Shown here one piece after another: positions 24,386-51,052 of a stretch of 64,000 nucleotides of DNA (position 1 is the stretch's first letter; each line of letters begins with the position of its first letter). Below the pieces are notes generated by a model. The model had not been told where the DNA came from. It did not search any database and was given only the letters and a program-made list of their open reading frames with translations. Origin of the DNA: Chytridium lagenaria (taxonomy: Eukaryota; Chytridiomycota; Chytridiomycetes; Chytridiales; Chytridiaceae); assembly GCA_025449115.1 (NCBI GenBank), contig JAHLKC010000025.1, positions 1 to 64,000 on the forward strand, read 5' to 3'. Position numbers and translations under genes: made by a program.

Positions 24386-25694
24386 TCATTTCGCTTTAAT
24401 AACCTGCAAAATAACCCTCCTATGTACACACTCCAACACCGTCCCCACGTTATTCTGAAAGAATGCTGCAGCACCAACATTGACATTAAAATGCGCCGCA
24501 AGTCTCCCCTTAAACTTTTTCCTGGTCATGTAGAACAATGGCAAGAAGATGACCCACAGACACGAGATCCACAAAAACACCCAGGTGAACCAGCTCTGAG
24601 CTGCCCGTGCGATTGGGGAGGATGAAAAGACGGTGATGGAGGAGAAGGGACGTTGAAATTCGACTTGTATTCGGAAGCGGTAGCCGGTGGAACGGATGGC
24701 TGAGACGAAGGCGTCGTGAAGGTTACGATAGTCCCAGGGGATTTCTTTTTCAAGGTGAAGTCTTTCAAATGATAAGCGTTACTACCGGTAAAAAAACAAA
24801 CAAAATAAACATACTCTTTGAGAACGTTCTTTGATCGTGTGAATTCCTCAAGAGCCTCCTTGAATTGGCCAGATTCGGCCGTAAGGTTTGGGACATGAGC
24901 GCCCACGCCGTTTGCCATGTTAATTTTTCGTCATATTTGGTCATTTTTGGTAGAGCGAATACGGCATGCCTACAGGGTTATAAGATCAGTTTTTCAAATG
25001 GACGTGCGTGTTTTGCCCTTACCAATCTGGGTTGACGTAATGAGATAAATCTATATGAAAGTCAAAGTCCGTCACAAATACTTTTGTTGCCTTGATGAGT
25101 GCCTCTGAAATAGATGACGAGGCCAGGACCTTCGACCTGATGAAAAGAAAAAGTAAGTTGAAAGATCAAAAGAAAACTATATATAAAAAAAAAATACTGG
25201 GGAAAAAAATATTACGGAACTCACTAAATGGGTTAAGAAGAACCTGTAAAGCTCATCCGGCTGCACGTTTTCAAAACCAAAAATGGTTAGATCATTAAAA
25301 CGCTTATAGCAAGAACTTGAACTCACATCAGCCTGCAATCTGTCATCAAACGACGTAATGCCGTCTGCAGTCTTCTTAACCCTTGCCTCTGAGGCCTTTA
25401 TAGGCGCCACGTTCTGTCGAAGCCTTTTACATCATCAGCCCAAACCATCACTTTTTTTTGGTAAAAACACTTACAAGACATTATGTTGGGGTAGTAATGA
25501 TGATTCAAAATAATGTGGAGATGATGCACTTGAGGAATGTGCGTCTGCGGCAGGAAGAGAGGAAAGGCATCATGGAATGATAGTGAGGGTGTTACGTGAG
25601 GGTATGGGGGTTGGGAGGCAGCACCGGCAGACAGGCCTGTGGAGTATGGGTGGCCCATCTCGATATCGTGAGGCTGTCTTTTGTCGTAGGACAT
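24386..25694 (-). CDS. Uncharacterised fungal family, copy C (C-terminal membrane anchor)
   Basis: Minus-strand member of the same family as at 4.9 and 7.3 kb, with the same intron positions. It begins MSYDKRQPHDIEMG and has SSPHYFESSLLP, LLRQNVAPIKAS, the 36-nt micro-exon PDELYRFFLTHL, VEGPGLVIYFRGTH, MANGVGAHVPNL and LEKEIPWDYRNL. The membrane segment is WFTWVFLWISCLWVIFLPL followed by RKKFKGRLAAHF. Single-base shifts relative to the paralogues fall near 25,570 (before the SSPHYF block), 25,105 (A run) and 24,922 (A run). The last exon is intact to TGA at 24,386-24,388. Function unknown. Confidence 0.7.
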
Positions 25695-26539
25695 CTACAG
25701 CTGCTGTGGTGGTTGTTGTGTTGATTTGAGGGTAAGGTGGTGTATGTACACCGCACCGACGTGAGATGACGGAAGGGAGGGTTATCTGGATATTATCACA
25801 GTTGGATGAGGGGGGGTTTAACCCTTCTTTCTGGTATATTATCGATGATGTGTGCTGGTAATGTGTGTGCACTGTTATGAAACATCACCCAACTTTATGA
25901 TTTCTGTGTGTAGCCACACCGTATTCCCAGCCACTGCGTGTGTAACTATAAAATGGCATAAAGTTTTTCGCTCAGTTTGTTTTGTCCCCAGATCTTCACA
26001 ATACATTGTAAATGTGACGCCTTCACTGCATCTGCCAGCTGACGTCCTGTTTCCATTGAAACCGTGGTCGCCATGCCTGACGTCGACATTTCTGTCATCT
26101 CATCCCCTCTCCGTTGTTCCTGGTGGCGCTGCTGCTTAGAAAAGCCTGAAGACGCAGGAGCAAACTTGCACCTCCATTGAAGGCCGGAGTCAAGACAGCG
26201 AAAATTAAGATATTTAACGTTCAGAAACTAATTCGCGCACATTCTCATCACGCTATATTATACTGCGGGCGTTGCATAAAGTGAATGAAGCAGGGCCAGG
26301 ATTGCCATAAATATTATCGTCTTTGCTTCACTATTCAACGAGATGTAGCCTGGCTTTTTTATTGTTTGATATTAAATGAAAAATAAAAAAAGGGTCTATT
26401 GTAAATAACATCGCATAGGTCAAAATAAAAAAGAAAGTTCTTTTTTTCAAAAAATAATTCCAGTAACTTCCTATTATGCAAGGAAAGCAAACCACAATGA
26501 ATGAATGAACATATTTACAAGGAAATTGATGCCCCTCCT
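25695..26539. other. Intergenic region
   Basis: Upstream region of copy C and 3' flank of copy D. Only short frames; nothing conserved-looking. Confidence 0.45.
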
Positions 26540-28017
26540 TCAAGCTCCCCTAAATCTCAGTCCCATAGCTCTTCCCCTCGCAGCCCCCATCGCTGCCAAC
26601 ACATTATTTTGGAAAAAAGACCCTCCATCCACCATCATAGGGTAATGTGCTGCAAGCCTTCCCGAAATCTTCTTCCTCGTTATACAAAACAAAGGCAAAA
26701 AGATCAACCATAAGCAAGTGATCCCCAGACATACCCACGTCCACCAACTTTGCGCCATACGGGAGATTGGGGATGACGAGAAGACGGATATGATGGCATT
26801 GCGACGGACAAAGGAAACATCGATATGACCAAAGTACCCGGTGCTGCGAATGGCTTGCTTAAAGGCACGACGGAGATTATCATAGTCCCAGGGGATTTCT
26901 TTGTCAAGATGAATCCTAACAAACCACTTTGTTAGACAAACGCGTAAGCACGAACCGCAACTCAACTCTTTTAAGAGGTTTTTGGACATGGTGAACTCCT
27001 CCAACGCTTTCCTGAACAACCCTGATTGAGCATCCAAGACCGGGACGTGAGCGCCAACCGCGCGCATATTTTGACGTTCTTGTTTACGTGTCATTTTGGG
27101 GAGAGCAAACACGGCGACCCTATTCGCCGGTATTTCAGTCTCACTACACGTAATCTTATTTCAACTTACCAGTCGTTCTGGATGTAGTGGGATACGTCAA
27201 TTCCTGAAATGCGGGTGAGATAATATTCAAGTGTAGAGCTTACCAAAGGTAAAATCAGTTACGGTTCTTGTTTCGGTGCGGGTTTCCGTCCTGGTGCCGC
27301 CGTTCCCGTCAGACACAGTCTCTGTGCGGGTGTAGGTTTCTTGATGGGTTCCTTTTAACAAAAAGAATTTAAATATCACGACTATAACTTGACTTTGAAT
27401 GGTGAGACGAACAGACTCACCCGTAATCCAAACGTCCATCCCAGGCTTTTCAAGCTAGGTTGAAAAAATAAATTAGAAAAAGGGAGATTAAAATAAGCAT
27501 CGGAACCCACAAGATGCGTCATAAAGAACTTGTAAAGCTCATCGGGCTGTTCAAAAAAGCAAACAAAGCAACATGTTAGAATGGTAGTAAAAAAAACAAC
27601 ATGGCTAAACTTGCATTGCTCTGCAAATATCATCAAAACGACATAATCTTTCCGCCCTTCTTCTCCCTCTTGAAGGTAGCAGTCGAAGCCTCAAGCGGTG
27701 GAACGTTTTTGCCTCAACCTAAGCAAAACTTTCATTACTTTCCCCGCACATTTTAATAAAGTGCATCCAAAAACTCACAACACGTTCTCTTTGGCAGCAA
27801 CGACACTTCAAAGTAATCCGGCGGCAACCCATTCATCTTTGCAGCATCTTCAGCCGACAACCCCGAAATTGCATCCTGTTTAATCCCGTTACTCTGCATG
27901 TCAAAAGGCTTTGTTGTACCTGGAATGACGGTGGCGGGGTCCAGACAAGTACTCGGAAGGTGGAGGTGGAGCTTCTTCAAAAGAGACAGGACCCGTTTCG
28001 ATATCGGATTTGCCCAT
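26540..28017 (-). CDS. Uncharacterised fungal family, copy D (C-terminal membrane anchor)
   Basis: The start at 28,017 gives MGKSDIETGPVSFEEAPPPP, matching the IEMG/IETG opening of the family. Next come LPPDYFEVSLLP, the micro-exon PDELYKFFMTHL, LEKPGMDVWITG, a Thr/Arg/Glu-rich insertion (RTETRTETRTVTDF) unique to this copy, GIDVSHYIQNDW, ALPKMTRKQERQNM, LDKEIPWDYDNLRRAF and the helix WWTWVCLGITCLWLIFLPLF. From the micro-exon to TGA at 26,540-26,542 the exons join without a break. The 51-nt intron at about 26,978-26,928 is a multiple of three and open. The 5' third has shifts near 27,945 (C run), 27,797, 27,710 and 27,645. Function unknown. Confidence 0.72.
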
Positions 28018-28321: not shown

Positions 28322-31300
28322 CTACGCGATTAAGAGTTCGTCGTTTTTCCGGTGCATGGGAAGTCCCTTATGCAAGGGGTAATCATGCCCCATTGCGACC
28401 ATAATGCAACATCGCATAATGTTGAGGGCACCAAGAACATCCCGATTCCATAATGTGAAGCAGCTTTTGCAGCTCAACACAGAGTGGATAGGGGAGCCTT
28501 GTGGTCCTCCTTGACCTCGAACCTTTTCCAGGTTCCCTCTGTTATAATTTGGAGTCAGTTGGTACAGAGCAGCAATTATAATAATAAATGATTCTACTTA
28601 CAACTTCAATTCGCAAGGGCAGACGGATGAAGTAAAGGGCTCCTTTTGCATCAAGACCTTCTTCACCCACCCCTTCTTTCGTACCATTGCTCTCAGCAGT
28701 CTCTTCATCGGCCCCTAGTTTTGCTTCCCTCTGATGTTCTTGGAAACATTAGGGTTTGAAAAGAATGAAGCTCCTGAGCCGACTACGATGACGACATCCT
28801 TGTGTCCTATTGTAATGTTTGAGAAAAACACATAACAAGACATCTTCTTACCGTGGCAAAGCTTTTTTATCAGCTTATCCAATGCCTTCTGTTCCTTCAC
28901 GTACTTGCGAAATCGTTGATCTCGCTCCCGATATTTGTGACAATATAATACCTTTAAAACATAATTATCAAGTTGCTATTTACATTGAAAGTCTTACCTC
29001 ATAAAAGTATGATGTGTATTCCACGAACTGCATAAATCATCAACGGATGAGGTCTTTGCCGACGGGATATTTTCTCGCACCTTCTTGACCTGTTTTAGCA
29101 AAAAATGAAAGATTTTAAAACCTAAGTCAGTCGTATATAGATAATAGGGTATTACCTCCTCGCTACAGGCCTATGAACGCCGTGGCCAGCCTCGTTGTGC
29201 CATTCGCGGCTGGTAATATGGGATCTTAGATAACTACAATGTGGCTCCTTCAAGTCGTCAGGGATTTCCCCCCACCCCCACTCTGGGTCCCCTCTTTCTC
29301 CTTTGGCATGAGGGTTCTTTATCGATGGCGGCTGCATTGTAGAAGGTGGTTTCTTACGGCAACGACGTTTTCTTCGTTTCCCTCGCCTTTTCTTCTTTGT
29401 CTTTTTCATCTTCTTTGACTTCTACTTCTTTGACTTTCTGACTTCTTTAACTGATCCCTCTTCTTTGACTTTGCTTCTTCTTCATATCCGTCATCAATTC
29501 CTTTCCCTCCACTGAAGGCTCCTTTTGAGCTTCATTTAACAATATCGCCTCACTCTCCTTTACCCTTTTCCTTTTCTTTCTCTTCTCCTCTTGATAGCAC
29601 CCTTGCTGCCCTTTTCTTTAGTTCTTTCGGGTACGAATTAAAGGCACGCGTAAGAATCCATTAAGTGGATCAGTTACACCAGGGTCGAAACAGGCGACGA
29701 TTTGTTTAGGATCCAATACAATCTTCTTGTCGCTCGTGAGGCTATCAGCCTTGTCCAGTTCAACTCGCGAATATTAACTATGTCTGCACCTTTAATTCTT
29801 TTTCGTTTTAATGTCCAAGAGGCTCCATAACCGTCCGTGGTGAGTCGAAAGCCAAAGTAGCATTTATAATCCTTCACCTCCTTTGCGAGGTCAGGTAACG
29901 GTGGAAATCGCAGCTCCCCCATGACGATGTGGGAATCGAAAAACAAGATTCCATAGTTGCCACTTGTCCACGTTGGACGATCCTGGTTTCTGCGTCAAAA
30001 AACCAATTTAAGAGTTGTTAGTATAATGCAGTAGTAAATACTATAATTGTAATCAGTAATTTAAACGACTTACTTTTACATGCCTCAACTCTTTTGGTAA
30101 ATTAGAGTCGGCATCCAATATGAGAGCAAGGTTTCAGTACTTATCGGCATGTACTTTGGTTTGACTTGTGGGATAGGCATCATACTGAACTGACGGAACC
30201 CACGAGGGTCATAGTAGCGAGGCGGCGCAAAAGAACCTTTCGATATTTCTTCTTGGATATTACTAATTTCAGGATCAGCAGTGTCCTAAATCAATAGACA
30301 AGGGGTTCCCAAAATCAATGGTGTTTGGTTCTTCCTGGAATTAATTGCTGATTCCATAGTTCCGGCGATGGCTGATTTCCTTGAGATCGTGAGAGAATTC
30401 ATTTTATCTAATTCGTTGATACGACGGCGGCAGTACGACTTTGTTACCCTTGATTGAACAGGACCAGGAGTGATGTCTGCTGTTACGTTTGAAACTTGCT
30501 TTGAATGAATCCCATTAGAGGCAAGAAGGTCATCCAATGATCACGAACGGTCCCTTTGCTAACGAGGTGGTTCCAGTGCGAACGAGGAACGTTTTCCAAA
30601 ACATTGCGCACTACACGACAAACCAACTGAACAACCTCGACAGACGGGAAGTAATCTCTTGATGTTTCTCCGCCAGCCTCCATAGTGGTCAAATGCACTC
30701 CCACCACTTTTATATTCAATGGATCCGACATGATGGTCTTGCGATACTCATTCCCGACCTCAATAATCAGCAGCATAAGTTCTGCCAGTCGGTTGACCGA
30801 GATAGCATTGGGATTGTTTTTGCCATCAATCTTGACGTTCGTATCCATTTCAGGTAACCCTCGGATAATCTCCATCTTAAAGTAGTTGTTAAGGCGATGG
30901 TGGAGGTGGGTTGCCACGTGAGATTCAGCGTTTGCTAGGTACATTGTTCTTGACTCTCCCAGAGCGTTTTTCAAGAGGTCTCGGCAAGGGTACCCACCCT
31001 CCGTAACTGAGATCACGCTCTTTATCTCTTCCGCACATACCGCCAATGCTTTGTCGGTAATTTCCATCAAGTGTTGTTCACCGCCGCGATCGGTTAGTGT
31101 GCTTATGGAAGATGCACACGCTTGATAGAAGTTGTCATTCCCGAGGAAATCTTCCAGTCGCCGAAGGCGCCAGGAGATAAGAGTTTCATTGTTCGCATTT
31201 GCTGCAGGCGGGTGGATTGTTGTACCGCCGCCGTTCCACTCCAGCTGGTCGAAATCACCATTGATTGTCTTGATCACGTAGAGGTTCAGCAAAATGGCTT

Positions 31301-33630
31301 GGTAGTAGCAGATTCTTGAGAAGTGCCCAATCAACCCGTCTAATCGTTTAAAAAATGATTCCGCAGGCTCTGTAGGTTGTCGGTGGGATATTCCTACAGT
31401 ACTCTTGACGATTTTGGTGTCAAACTGTAACACTTTTTAAATAGATAGATAACATTAGTTTTTTTCGCAGTCTTTTTTAATGAGGTTTTACCTGCGGATG
31501 AGGCAGTATCAGAATCTTTCAACAACTGAAGATGCATTTGTTGAACGATGCTAAGTTCAGTCTTTTCCCTGAAATCTTCCTCATTGAATTCAACATCTTT
31601 AATTAAGTGAACGTAAAGATTAGTAAACAAGTCTTTAAAGTTTTTTTATATGGAAAAGATGATCTTACCTTGTATTACAACTTGACCCTTACGATCCATT
31701 TCAAACACTTCATCCTCTACTGGGAACCCCTCCGACGAATCATCAAACCATGCTGCTTCATCCGCTTCAATCGTCTTCCTAAACTCGGGGTCCTTTTCTT
31801 TTCTTCTAGGTGACTCATATGTGTTCTTGTATGCCCAAGGAGAGGATTGCTCCAAGTTTCCGGTAGAAACCAGAGGAAATGATGTAATTCAGATCGTTTT
31901 CGTCATCTTCTATAGATTTGTCTATGCTGATGTCCTCCTCCATAAGGTCGTCCACAGGCTCTTGTGCCATCCTTGCCCACTTTTGCGGAAGTGGTATTAA
32001 GCCAGCCTTGATATCGTCCTTTGAGCGACAAGGAGGAGGGGGTACAAAAGAGTTTTTCCGAAATGGGCATAAAGTGCTGTTGCTTCGAAAATGACCGATG
32101 GCAAGGTAGCCGTTACATGCACACTTGGGACAACCTTGTTATTAAAGATGTTAGTTTACAGTTATTATAAACGTACTTTAAATCAAAAACTTACGTGTCG
32201 GTTTTGCCTGCGCTCCCCGTGGACCAACATTTACAGAAGCTTTGGCTCTAGCCTTCATTGGAGCACTCTTGACAACGCCCCTACGATGGTTCTTCACATA
32301 GAAAGCAATTGTCTGCTTCATCGGGATCTCGTAAGAAAGCGATTTCCGCTGAACCTAATAATAACACATGATTAAAATAAAGACAAAGCGTACACTCTTT
32401 TTACCTTGGTTGGGACGATCTCTTTGGCTGACACGACCTTGTTGGCTTGAACTACCTCGGGAACGACCTCGTTGGCTGGAAAATCTGGTAAAGATAGCCT
32501 CGGCTTTCTCCGATTGATGAGCGGGGGTGGCGATGATTCTTCAAAAGCCTCATCGAGGGAAGAGTCCTTTAATAATGCTGATTTAGTTCCAAAGTTCCCT
32601 TCGAAGGAAGAGTCCTTTAATATTATATTAGTTCAAAGTTGGAAAATGTTAGTAGCATACCTTTTCCCATTCAAATTGAGTCCTGTTCTCTCGAAATGCT
32701 TCTTGCGGGACAACGTCGCTTCTCTATACATACATTGACGAAATCACAAGAAGAAAAAAAATTAGAACAGACCAGAATATAGGAAACACTACAAAACAAT
32801 TAAACTTACACGACGTAAACGGACGTAATGGCTGCGTTCCTCGAGTTCATTCTGATAATACGCGATGTCCACATATGGGTTGTTGTCATTGTTGCTGGTC
32901 TTGTATACGCTATATTCGCCGTTGTCTGTCAACATGTGACATATGACGGTAACATCATACAACATCGTGAAAGCTTGCATGACAGTCCCGTCACCCAGAG
33001 AACCCGTTTTCTCTAACTTCTTCAAATACTCATCAACACTCACGCTGTACTCGTTTCGAATCTCTTCTTCAAAAGAGATCTTATTAGACCCAATAAACTC
33101 CACCAAGCTCGAGCGGAGATCTTCCGGATCACATCCATCAAAAACGGAGTGCCCAGAAGAGACAGTTCCCCATCCCCTCATTTGGAAGTTCTACATAGCC
33201 ACGATCCCATAAAATGGTCCTAAGTCGATCTGGTCGGTAAAAGTATCGTCTCTTGATTGGCGATGGCATGTCTTTTTTGAATGTTGTGGTTCTGACGTTT
33301 TGACGGAGAGACAAGGATAAAAGAGAAGATCAAGGATTAAGGAATAGCGTGTCAAAAGAGGAGTAGACAAAGGTGTTAATATTGCTACCAGACACCTCAA
33401 TGTTACCTGAAAGCGTTGATGCTTTCTTCTTTGAGAGTGACGTTTTCTCATTAAACCTCTGACGTGGATGCGGAACGGTTAATGTACATGAATAGATCTC
33501 TTATTCTACTTACCGTTTGTTTCAGTTGCTGACCCGGTTCATCTTGAAAATCAGAGTCACTTGAAATGGCCCTCTCTGCTTTCTCATCTGCGAGAGGAGG
33601 GCGGCCTTTACGCTTTCTCTTTTCTTTCAT
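28322..33630 (-). mobile_element. OTU domain - zinc knuckle - Fanzor (eukaryotic TnpB) nuclease gene
   Basis: About 14 exons whose phases join from 33,630 to TAG at 28,322-28,324 (roughly 1,480 codons). The N-terminus (KRKRKGRPP) is basic and AT-hook-like. An OTU cysteine-protease domain follows: EGMGNCLFWAL with Cys at 33,162, ending HYVRLRR near 32,829. A zinc knuckle comes next (CPKCACNGYLAIGHF...C, about 32,130-32,060), then an acidic linker. The Fanzor part starts near 31,430: FRQFSMMPIPQVKPKYMPIS, FGFRLTTDGYGASW, RuvC-I ACFDPGVTDPL (Asp 29,684-29,686), EWHNEAG, RuvC-II QKEPFTSSVCPC (Glu 28,640-28,642) and SVLSCKSCFTLWNRDVLGAL (RuvC-III Asp 28,439-28,441). Breaks: frameshifts near 33,156, 31,855, 30,538 and 29,750; in-frame stops near 30,286, 29,612 and 28,710. 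Fanzors are RNA-guided DNA nucleases of eukaryotic transposons. Confidence 0.85.
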
Positions 33631-34610: not shown

Positions 34611-34959
34611 ATAAGATGGTTGAAAACTATGAAGAAAAAACCTGTAAAAAATAGGTGCCCACATTGTTATACGTGTGGCGCAGGATATATGACAATTCTG
34701 AAATTTAGCATCGTGCACTCTACCCGCTCAAAGGGAAACACTACTATTTATTTACTATATATACTCTTGTCTCAATAACATATCTCAGATATTTGATAAT
34801 TAAATATCATTGACATTCTAAACACACATCATCTAAAACACCTATCTATCTCTACAAGTCCCCATCCCATCACATATTTATTACTTACATACACATATAT
34901 ATCCTCATTCCTACTTTCATACTTGCTTGCAACAAGTGTAAAATCATGTCTATTGCTAC

Positions 34960-48575: not shown

Positions 48576-51052
48576 TCATCTCCAACCTTCTGCAAGTCCC
48601 GGTGACATGGACCCTTGATAAGTCTGTGTAGGATGTAAAGGCCCAGCACCCGTCGCCAAAGCCCCCCCAATCATCTGATGCTGCTGCAAAACAGGACTCC
48701 CATACCCTCCCATCCCACCACCCCGAACTCCACCGCGTTGATGCATGGTCTGTGGCAATTGCTCATACTTGTGCATATACTGCATTGGCGACATCTGATG
48801 CCGCGGTAACTGTCCAACAATAAGCCTCCCCCCGATAGGTGGAACACGTGCAGACATGGGTGGGGGTGGAATAAGTCTTGCCAAACTCGGAAGCACCGTC
48901 TTCTTGACCGCATCGTCCTGCGCCATCCCAACAGGCGGCATTGGGGTGACAGAAGAAAGTTCCACCAGCGAGGGAGGAGGGGAGTGGTTGTTAAACCCCT
49001 GGGGTATTGGCGAACGCGTCGCTACCGTATGGCGATCAGAGTCCATCATCACATTTCCCATCCCAGAAGCATTACTTTCATCCATCGACATTCTCCTCTC
49101 ACTCATTCTCCATCCCACGACATCCTCCTTTCACCAATGATATCGACCATTGCCTCTTGCTTCAGGATAGGAGGTAGCCGACGCGGTTGCAGCATCATAG
49201 ACAAATGAATGTTTGCAGATGGCGCAGGCTGTGGAAAGGTGAACATGGAGCCCGTACTTCCACGGCGTTGCTCAAGAAGCGAAGTCTGACTCCTTTCAAA
49301 GAATAGCGGAAGTTGCGGTGATAATGCAGCGTCCAGAGGCTTTGGAGCAAGCGAGGGCCATAAAGAGTTGGTTGAGCCGGCCGCTTCGCGATGATTTCTT
49401 AGACACCCTTCATCACCCTGTTCCACACCACCATCACCCTCCTTATCCCCCCCAATTTCGTTGCGAACTGACGCGTCTATCGCCCTTCCCCCGTCGTTTT
49501 TTACTAGATGTTTCCCTTCGATTTCTTCTTTTTTGGCTTTCTCATCTCTTCCCCCACCACCACCATATCCTCCGTTACAATTCCACACTCTCCTCCTCCG
49601 TCCCCTCGCCTTTCTCAACCATAAACAGCTTCTCAATTTCTTTCTCTGTGCCGTCCTCCATAGGTGGAGGCGGTCCCGGACACCTCCCACTCCTCACATG
49701 TCTCTGCCTCGCATCCATCCTCGTAAACTTTGCTCCACACACGTCACATTCAAAACCCTTGACCCTCGAATGCGTCGCCCCATGTCTCATCAGATCCTGT
49801 CTCCGAAAAAACCCCTCCCCACAATCGGCACAAACATGGCTTCGCGTGAGCTGATGAGACCGGACGTGACTTCTTAGACGTTCTCGTGTCGCAAACGTTT
49901 TACCGCATCGAGGATGATCGCAGGTCCAGGGATGATGTTGATGGTGTGGCGGCGTGTTGCATCCGGGCGATGGTGTGGTCGCAGAAAAAGGCGGCGGCGA
50001 AGCCGCAGGAGATGTATTGGTAGATGTGGCGGCGGAAGACGAGATAGACGTCATTGACTCGTTGGGGGTCGACGTGCCAGAGTCGTCAATGAAAGTCGAG
50101 GAGGTCGATAGAGGTGGATCCGTTTGCATTTTGCGGCCTTGAAAAGACTGTGTAGAAGGCAGTGGTAATCTGCTTTGAGCTTCTTCATCGTTTACGGCCA
50201 GTCCTTTTCTCTTTCGACCAGATCGGGAAGCTACAGGCGTGAGAACTGGTGTTGGCCGGGGAGTCTGCATGGGAGTTGCATTCGGTGTGGGAAGAGTTGC
50301 CATTCCCGGTACCGTATTAGAGAGCTGCGCATCTTCATCTCGCCGCCCAACAGGCTCTAAAGCAATTCCATTAGCCCGAGCTTCTTGTGGTTCCACGGGT
50401 ATTGGTTTTTGATTAAAACCTTGGCCAGATAAACTGGCGAGACCAAGAGGTGGTGAGGGAGAAGGCGAATGGGGTGCATCGGATTGCTGTCCGTTTGCGT
50501 TATTTGACCACTTTTGAACCATGGATGTATTTCGATTCATGCCCATTGAGTCCCGAAAGGCGGTATGCGATGCAGAGTCGATGGCTAATGCATTGGCTCT
50601 TGATGACGGATCCTGTAAGGAAGGCGAATCTGAAAGTGCCACCGCAAGAGCTGCAAGGCTGTCCAAGGCGTTTTTCGGGTTCTGAGCTGCAGAAGTTGCA
50701 GAGGTGCCATTCTGATGTTCACGAGAGTCGTCGTCGAGCAAGGCCGACACAGGAATGCTCTTTTTTGAAAGTTCCATGGTTGCTTGCTCCGAATTCCTCA
50801 TTTTTGCATGCATGCCATTTGCATGGCCCGTGTCAGTCCTCGCCCGCTTGACTTGAGGACTCAAGTTACCTAAGAGCTCTGTCTGCACAGCACCTTGCTC
50901 CATGTCTGTCTCCAGTTCCCACGGCCGCTTCTTCCATGAGGTTGAGGATGAGAAAAGAGGGGTTGCATAGACACTGGGCTGTTTGTCCGGTGGCGTTGCA
51001 TGGTGGATGAAGATTGAGAATACGGTGGCGAGGAAGATGTGGATAAAGTCAT
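48576..51052 (-). CDS. C2H2 regulator with three tandem fingers
   Basis: The start at 51,052 (MTLSTSSSPPYSQSSSTMQ) was chosen over a longer frame because the upstream extension reads as non-coding. A Ser/Pro/Ala/Asn-rich N-terminal half precedes the fingers at about 49,940-49,690: WTCDHPRCGKTFATRERLRSH, HVCADCGEGFFRRQDLMRH and FECDVCGAKFTRMDARQRH, the last ending in Cys (SGRC) instead of a second His. A Pro/Gly/Met-rich C-terminus (SPMQYMHKYEQLPQTMHQRG) ends GLAEGWR at 48,576. No introns, unusual for this window. Shifts near 50,950 (T run), 49,585 and 49,110 (G run) must be bridged. It is probably a sequence-specific transcription factor; targets unknown. Confidence 0.72.

Follow-up and report, generated by a model that had tools for sequence, protein, structure and literature searches.

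Among rolling-circle transposons, OTU genes are known from Helentrons (PMC4067079, PMC9741609) and Fanzors from Helitron2 elements (PMC3627910). The Helentron OTU-like proteases have been described as additional open reading frames (ORFs) that were suggested to act in transposition (PMC4067079); OTU domains, as putative enzymes, are also present in 121 Helitrons that have VTD (PMC9741609), and the occurrence of OTU in Helentrons is noted in a paper on Fusarium Helitrons (PMC5148889). As for the Fanzors, their published marks are the DPG motif of RuvC-I and a glutamate placed six residues ahead of the zinc finger (PMC10711439); the copy pattern of the Chlamydomonas Fanzor1 Helitron2 elements has been compared with one-ended transposition (PMC3627910), and in the chytrid Spizellomyces the guide RNA lies between the stop codon and the 3' repeat, the guide RNAs of ghost loci being functional in an assay (PMC10432273). 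Judging by titles and abstract openings in an open-licence library, we found no literature that joins Fanzor and OTU. Here, we analyse a Fanzor element of Chytridium lagenaria in which both occur together, located in a stretch of 64,000 nucleotides (assembly GCA_025449115.1, contig JAHLKC010000025.1, positions 1 to 64,000 of the forward strand), hereafter the window.

An OTU-like domain, a zinc knuckle and a Fanzor in one predicted gene

From sequence comparisons, we propose that the minus strand from 34.7 to 28.3 kb carries a multi-copy Fanzor1 element in a broken copy. Its gene was likely a single spliced frame for an OTU-like domain, a zinc knuckle of the CCHC type and a Fanzor nuclease; the element would have spread in a Helitron2-like manner, and it ends with hairpins that may be a guide-RNA scaffold. 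We consider this reading as a whole to be probable. Exon boundaries were set by eye, following GT-AG introns and open frames, so that all splice sites are predicted ones. The features, all on the minus strand, are as follows:

~34708 to ~28256, minus: whole element of the Fanzor1 type, ~6.4 kb, its upstream bound being the onset of similarity to the copy C130
33631..34708, minus: 5' part with a CAG-type repeat, where similarity to copy C130 begins at 34708
33630-33514 and 33458-33407, minus: predicted first exons e1 and e2, the least certain ones, also present in C130
32810..33291, minus: exon e3, OTU-like cysteine-protease domain (Cys codon 33162-33164, His codon 32828-32830)
32723-32661, 32614-32405 and 32354-32195, minus: linker exons e4, e5 and e6, open in the OTU phase and ending with a basic GPRG segment
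32134-31669, minus: exon e7, which opens with the zinc knuckle
32061..32132, minus: zinc knuckle CPKCACNGYLAIGHFRSNSTLCPF, at the start of exon e7
31492..31596, minus: acidic linker exon e8
30074..31432, minus: exon e9, N-terminal half of the Fanzor, with related stretches in C117 and C168
29156..29989, minus: exon e10, RuvC-I with DPG (Asp codon 29684-29686)
29089-28998, 28951-28852 and 28806-28602, minus: exons e11, e12 and e13, RuvC-II
28640-28642, minus: codon of the RuvC-II glutamate, in e13, six residues before the zinc finger
28322..28538, minus: exon e14, second half of the zinc finger (CKSC), NRD (Asp codon 28439-28441) and stop codon
28256..28321, minus: conserved 3' end with two hairpins, common to 15 other loci, candidate guide-RNA scaffold

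An earlier, sequence-only reading had bounded the feature at 28322..33630, which does hold the gene but is too small for the element. The motifs that it had named were all recovered on the minus strand in the order given: GMGNCLFWAL, the knuckle CPKC...H...CPF (32132-32061), FDPGVTDPL, KEPFTSSVCPC, CKSC and NRDVLGAL. Rfam and tRNA scans of the window returned no matches.

The case for one gene comes from the comparison of three families of the same genome, i.e., the window family and two others designated C117 and C168, which are 24-30% identical. First, the order OTU-like domain, zinc knuckle and Fanzor is common to all three. Second, the knuckle, spaced C-x2-C-x9-H-x7-C in the window, has its Cys, Cys, His and Cys in each family; the Pfam model zf-CCHC_6 gives the window knuckle 11.8 bits only (cut-off 22). 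Third, a predicted donor of phase 0 closes the OTU exon, and the predicted intron ahead of the first knuckle cysteine is of phase 1, in 3/3 families. Fourth, the exon preceding the knuckle ends with a conserved basic G-[PA]-R-G segment, in C117 and C168 as in the window. Fifth, the third intron (before e8) is of phase 1 in both the window and C168, C117 fitting upstream and being one base off downstream, and the fourth intron (between e8 and e9) agrees between the window and C168, C117 being ambiguous there. Because intron positions and phases match in three families, the shared introns likely go back to one ancestral spliced gene; and because two further families have the same order together with matching intron phases, the shared domain order exceeds what chance would give.

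Several findings pull the other way. The C117 and C168 genes are broken too: their OTU-to-knuckle linkers need frame breaks, their knuckles span a frame break, and C168 is devoid of the RuvC half. The frame from OTU to knuckle is thus unbroken in the window alone, which lowers our confidence slightly. A stop or a polyadenylation signal that would part the OTU from the Fanzor was looked for between 32.8 and 31.4 kb: one frame break was found, in e7, and in all three families the OTU exon runs into a splice donor rather than a stop. The proposal that OTU, knuckle and Fanzor belong to one gene is therefore upheld by three families with matching intron positions, but not as an intact chain, the window copy being interrupted by about a dozen frame breaks.

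The same data bear on two other explanations. The OTU and the Fanzor might be two adjacent genes of one transposon that never formed one protein, the former being an additional ORF as the OTUs of Helentrons are described to be (PMC4067079); a frame break does lie between the two parts in the window, several do in C117 and C168, and the architecture is known from genomic DNA alone. The phase 0 donor after the OTU, the phase 1 acceptor at the knuckle in every family and the conserved basic G-x-R-G exon before it are not what two separate genes would lead one to expect, and we regard this explanation as unlikely. Alternatively, an OTU exon from another mobile element could have been invaded by a Fanzor element, in a genome where repeats are nested, as exemplified by the ~470-base repeat that immediately precedes the C117 OTU. 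Such a chance neighbourhood is highly improbable, given that order, orientation and intron phases match across three families that are 24-30% identical.

Decay of the window copy

The exons had been described as a continuous chain, which was not borne out: the read-through protein, of 1448 residues, crosses 13 frame breaks, 11 of them within exons (two in e3, one of which directly follows the Cys motif; one in e7; three in e9; four in e10; and one in e13) and two at exon junctions. The e7 break sits in the knuckle exon, between the OTU and the Fanzor parts. The splice phases, which had been said to agree throughout, do so from the OTU exon e3 to e4, e5, e6 and e7, and then from the later frame of e7 to e8 and e9, but two other junctions disagree.

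The window was compared for indels with 12 of its 15 other copies. Among the 19 indel classes listed, the window differs from all covering copies at 10, from most of them at eight, and from a minority (3/11) at the remaining one; some of these indels fall in introns. Because the covering copies differ from the window at most of these classes, the window copy is decayed or, less likely, locally mis-assembled. A gene that is intact in the organism and broken by assembly errors only would fit with many of the breaks being single-base differences and with the assembly being in 356 contigs. Yet, there are also changes of 8 and 14 bases, some of them intronic, the window diverges from C130 by 10%, and other copies have indels of their own, so that an intact window gene appears quite improbable.

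Similarity to C130 is uneven along the element, with 75% identity over 34708-33933 and 90% over 33856-32324. In C130, an extra stretch of ~1.2 kb that is absent from the window (L016 2660-3949) separates the 5' part from the OTU gene; it holds open frames of 72 and 138 residues and yields no Pfam match above its cut-off.

Identity of the Fanzor part

The C-terminal half bears the published signature. RuvC-I has the DPG motif (FDPG in the window, LDPG in C117), a glutamate stands six residues before the zinc finger (E-PFTSSV-C and E-YRTSSV-C, respectively), and NRD follows the zinc finger in both; this finger is of the C4 type, with a first cysteine pair spaced C-x-C, not C-x2-C, in the window and C117. 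In the motif of Bao and Jurka, the first aspartate lies 125-275 residues before [TS][TS] (PMC3627910); the distance is 252 residues in the window and 285, i.e., slightly outside the range, in C117, both counts including break marks. The Pfam model PF07282 (cut-off 26.3) gives 27.0 bits for the C-terminal piece of the window (205 residues) and 33.2 for that of C117, and 23.6 bits, below the cut-off, for the whole window read-through. The TnpB model of NCBIfam stays far under its cut-off of 100 (18.5 and 20.9 bits). A PDB search with the window protein gave no match at E values up to 1, and with a three-family profile the Guillardia theta Fanzor1 (E 0.27) ranked no higher than ryanodine receptors (0.25). 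By its motifs, the window gene is a Fanzor, and is predicted to encode a nuclease.

Identity of the OTU-like part and signs of past selection

The catalytic-type cysteine and the downstream histidine of the OTU part are kept in the three families, within GMGNC in the window and GDGNC in C117 and C168; this part was aligned separately, because MAFFT misaligned it in the whole alignment. With PF02338 (cut-off 23.3), the C168 OTU scores 40.8 bits (E 3.7e-10), and a search with it retrieves the C117 OTU at E 0.0022, showing that these two are related. Compared with that of C130, its 90% relative, the OTU exon of the window differs at 2/135 second codon positions and at 15/135 third positions (Fisher p 0.0017). 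Because second positions change less than third ones, these figures point to past selection on the OTU protein.

Other results must be counted against an OTU protein shared by the three families. With the same model, the window OTU reaches 20.3 bits (E 8.1e-4), under the cut-off, and the C117 OTU 13.6 bits (E 0.097), far under it, and scans of the whole proteins reveal the domain in one of the three families only. The similarity of the window OTU to those of C117 and C168 was not significant; a genome search with the window OTU found neither of them, and a search with the C168 OTU did not find that of the window. Nor is there a clear excess of third-position changes in the linker (14/286 first plus second positions versus 10/143 third positions between the window and C130; p 0.38) or in the knuckle and Fanzor exons (five copies). 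By profile, the OTU identity is thus firm for C168 and weak for the window and C117.

A further OTU match in the genome, at C10, was taken on reading to be a host gene, with no Fanzor match nearby in the genome Fanzor searches.

Copies of the window family and their movement

A DNA search with 33750-28200 yielded 25 matches, which were grouped as the window and 17 other loci. The 3' end is common to 15 of the 17, the two others being C130, cut by a contig end, and C11 (67% identity). These 15 copies have 15 different starts: 14 are 5'-truncated within their contig, and C265 begins at a contig end. An inversion or internal deletions occur in three copies. Wherever a copy spans an intron, the intron is retained (2/2, 4/4, 4/4, 4/4 and 9/9, in the 12 of 15 copies compared), the copy L032 begins inside an intron, and no long A tail was seen in the 15 copy flanks. 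Target-site-like repeats of 7 to 13 bases, two of them with one mismatch, flank 4/14 copies (C265 was dropped, its upstream flank being missing).

Since this pattern matches the description of the Chlamydomonas Fanzor1 Helitron2 elements (PMC3627910), we infer by analogy that the window family spread by a Helitron2-like, helper-dependent process operating at the DNA level. A LINE-type (long interspersed nuclear element) reverse transcriptase acting on the Fanzor RNA by target-primed reverse transcription would also be expected to produce 5' truncation and variable repeats, and the common 3' end, the ragged 5' starts and the few target-site-like repeats could be read in this way. The introns retained in every spanning copy compared, the start of L032 within an intron and the flanks lacking a long A tail all speak against it, and we hold such an origin to be decidedly unlikely.

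The Helitron2-like spread has its own weak points. The permutation test of the flanking repeats gave p 0.099 with the wider windows used at first, and p 0.0034 was reached only once these had been narrowed following an initial look. No clear asymmetric terminal inverted repeat or 5' hairpin was found, the 5' end being known from two copies only, and no Helitron was found to bear the 3' pattern, though Helitron ends themselves were not compared. For the C117 family, a single further gene piece was seen, at C3; multiplication is seen for the window family alone, no copy search having been made for C168.

Helitron Rep domains (PF14214) have 30 matches in the genome, both strong and weak, which are possible helpers for Fanzor elements.

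The hairpins of the 3' end

The two hairpins that follow the stop codon are more stable than expected (z -3.39), none of 200 shuffles being equally stable. Their pairs are mostly kept across the 16 copies, L026 lacking part of the first hairpin and L032 part of the second. A hairpin close to the 3' end is also a mark of non-autonomous Helitron2-type elements. By analogy with the position of the Spizellomyces guide RNA, we regard these hairpins as a candidate guide-RNA scaffold; a point to its disadvantage is that no compensatory (double) changes occur in the hairpins of the 16 copies.

A 20-base pattern from this 3' end has 16 places in the genome, namely 14 of the window family and two taken as chance, and a hairpin-like site at window position 50811 was likewise taken as chance on reading.

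Relatives, other Fanzor loci and neighbouring genes

Three protein searches retrieved a single relative, P0001 (BC829DRAFT_443170), from the same Chytridium lagenaria, and no OTU match, a word-based search being weak for so diverged a protein. In this protein (L015), a weakly chitinase-like N-terminus, which resembles glycosyl hydrolase 18 at 22.8 bits (cut-off 29.6), is joined to a truncated Fanzor fragment, and P0001 is likely a gene-model artefact at a truncated copy. No relatives were found in the viral contigs searched.

Additional Fanzor matches occur at C42, C228, C46, C118, C94, C238, C51, C68, C2 and C66 (L017). A further Fanzor family is represented at C162, C35 and C4 (L069 4937-5430; L070 and L071, minus strand) by short 3' pieces in different surroundings, the C4 copy adjoining, by eye, a Ras-like gene. 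Two very similar Fanzors lie at C7:76504 and C86:77110 (L038, L039, L068), with open frames of 240 and 385 residues. Looking by eye through the ORF lists of the C7/C86 and C162/C35/C4 loci, we saw no OTU, the last three being 5'-truncated.

Directly upstream of the C117 OTU exon (L013 674-1144) lies a repeat of ~470 bases, most of whose length occurs at eight other places, two of them at 100% identity; it is likely an unrelated recent element, and the first ~72 residues of the C117 read-through, which fall in it, were excluded from the gene. At 24500-25700 and 26500-28000 of the window, the ORF list shows two minus-strand neighbour genes that look like tandem paralogues (shared GAHVP...EALEEF/KALEEF).

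Proposed function and significance

We propose that the element would spread by a one-ended process at the DNA level, as put forward for CRe-1, CRe-2 and CRe-3 of Chlamydomonas, a helper Helitron transposase acting in trans. The two 3' hairpins would form the scaffold of a guide RNA, for which the DNA flanking each copy would provide the guide, and the nuclease could then cut the matching unoccupied site, or the sister chromosome, so that the element is kept and copied. The zinc knuckle may bind nucleic acids. By analogy with the Helentron OTU and VTD proteases, the OTU part may deubiquitinate the nuclease, or its partner proteins on the DNA, and thereby protect the transposition complex. A bolder version, which we put forward as possible but doubtful, is that a chytrid Fanzor lineage makes one protease-nuclease protein with a built-in OTU deubiquitinase, an effector that strips ubiquitin from itself or from chromatin at the cut site, and that the truncated 3' ends dispersed over the genome, of which there are over a dozen, serve as ghost guide RNAs whose guides differ.

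The unusual Fanzor architecture that had been suggested from the sequence alone is real and unusual, and occurs in three families of one genome, though the window copy itself is broken. If the one-gene reading is true, this would be the first Fanzor gene known to us with a ubiquitin-protease-like domain, and the OTU and Fanzor genes, both accessory to rolling-circle transposons, would be tied into one coding unit. Such a pairing could help to explain how the element survives and spreads in its host; it makes testable the question of why mobile elements repeatedly acquire deubiquitinases, and adds a candidate guide-RNA region with many natural ghost copies.

Comparison with known systems

The closest counterparts are CRe-1, CRe-2 and CRe-3, the Fanzor1 elements of Chlamydomonas, which are non-autonomous Helitron2 elements (PMC3627910). 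Like the window element, they have a multi-exon Fanzor1, 5'-truncated copies and internal deletions, a 3' end that is nearly always kept and, in some copies, target-site duplications whose length varies (PMC3627910). They differ in that the main text describing them mentions neither OTU nor protease (PMC3627910), and the Helitron2 likeness of the window element comes from its copy pattern and 3' hairpins, not from shared Helitron ends.

The second counterpart, Spu-1 with SpuFz1 of Spizellomyces punctatus (PMC10432273), is also a chytrid Fanzor with many short loci devoid of the gene, and its guide RNA lies between the stop codon and the 3' end, as proposed here. Whereas Spu-1 is ~2.1 kb long, with one ORF, terminal inverted repeats and ghosts that have both ends (PMC10432273), the window element is of ~6.4 kb and has predicted introns as well as the OTU-like and knuckle parts, and a left end is missing from its short copies.

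Third, the Helentrons with OTU-like or VTD deubiquitinase domains (PMC4067079, PMC9741609) are likewise rolling-circle elements with a ubiquitin-type cysteine protease. They possess their own Rep-helicase and endonuclease, and Fanzor goes unmentioned in PMC9741609, whereas no Rep-helicase was noticed in the window element.

Finally, the window Fanzor has in common with TnpB of IS200/IS605 and IS607 the RuvC fold, the zinc finger and a proposed RNA-guided retention of the element. It differs from TnpB by the DPG motif, the moved glutamate (PMC10711439), the introns, and the additional N-terminal OTU-like domain and zinc knuckle.

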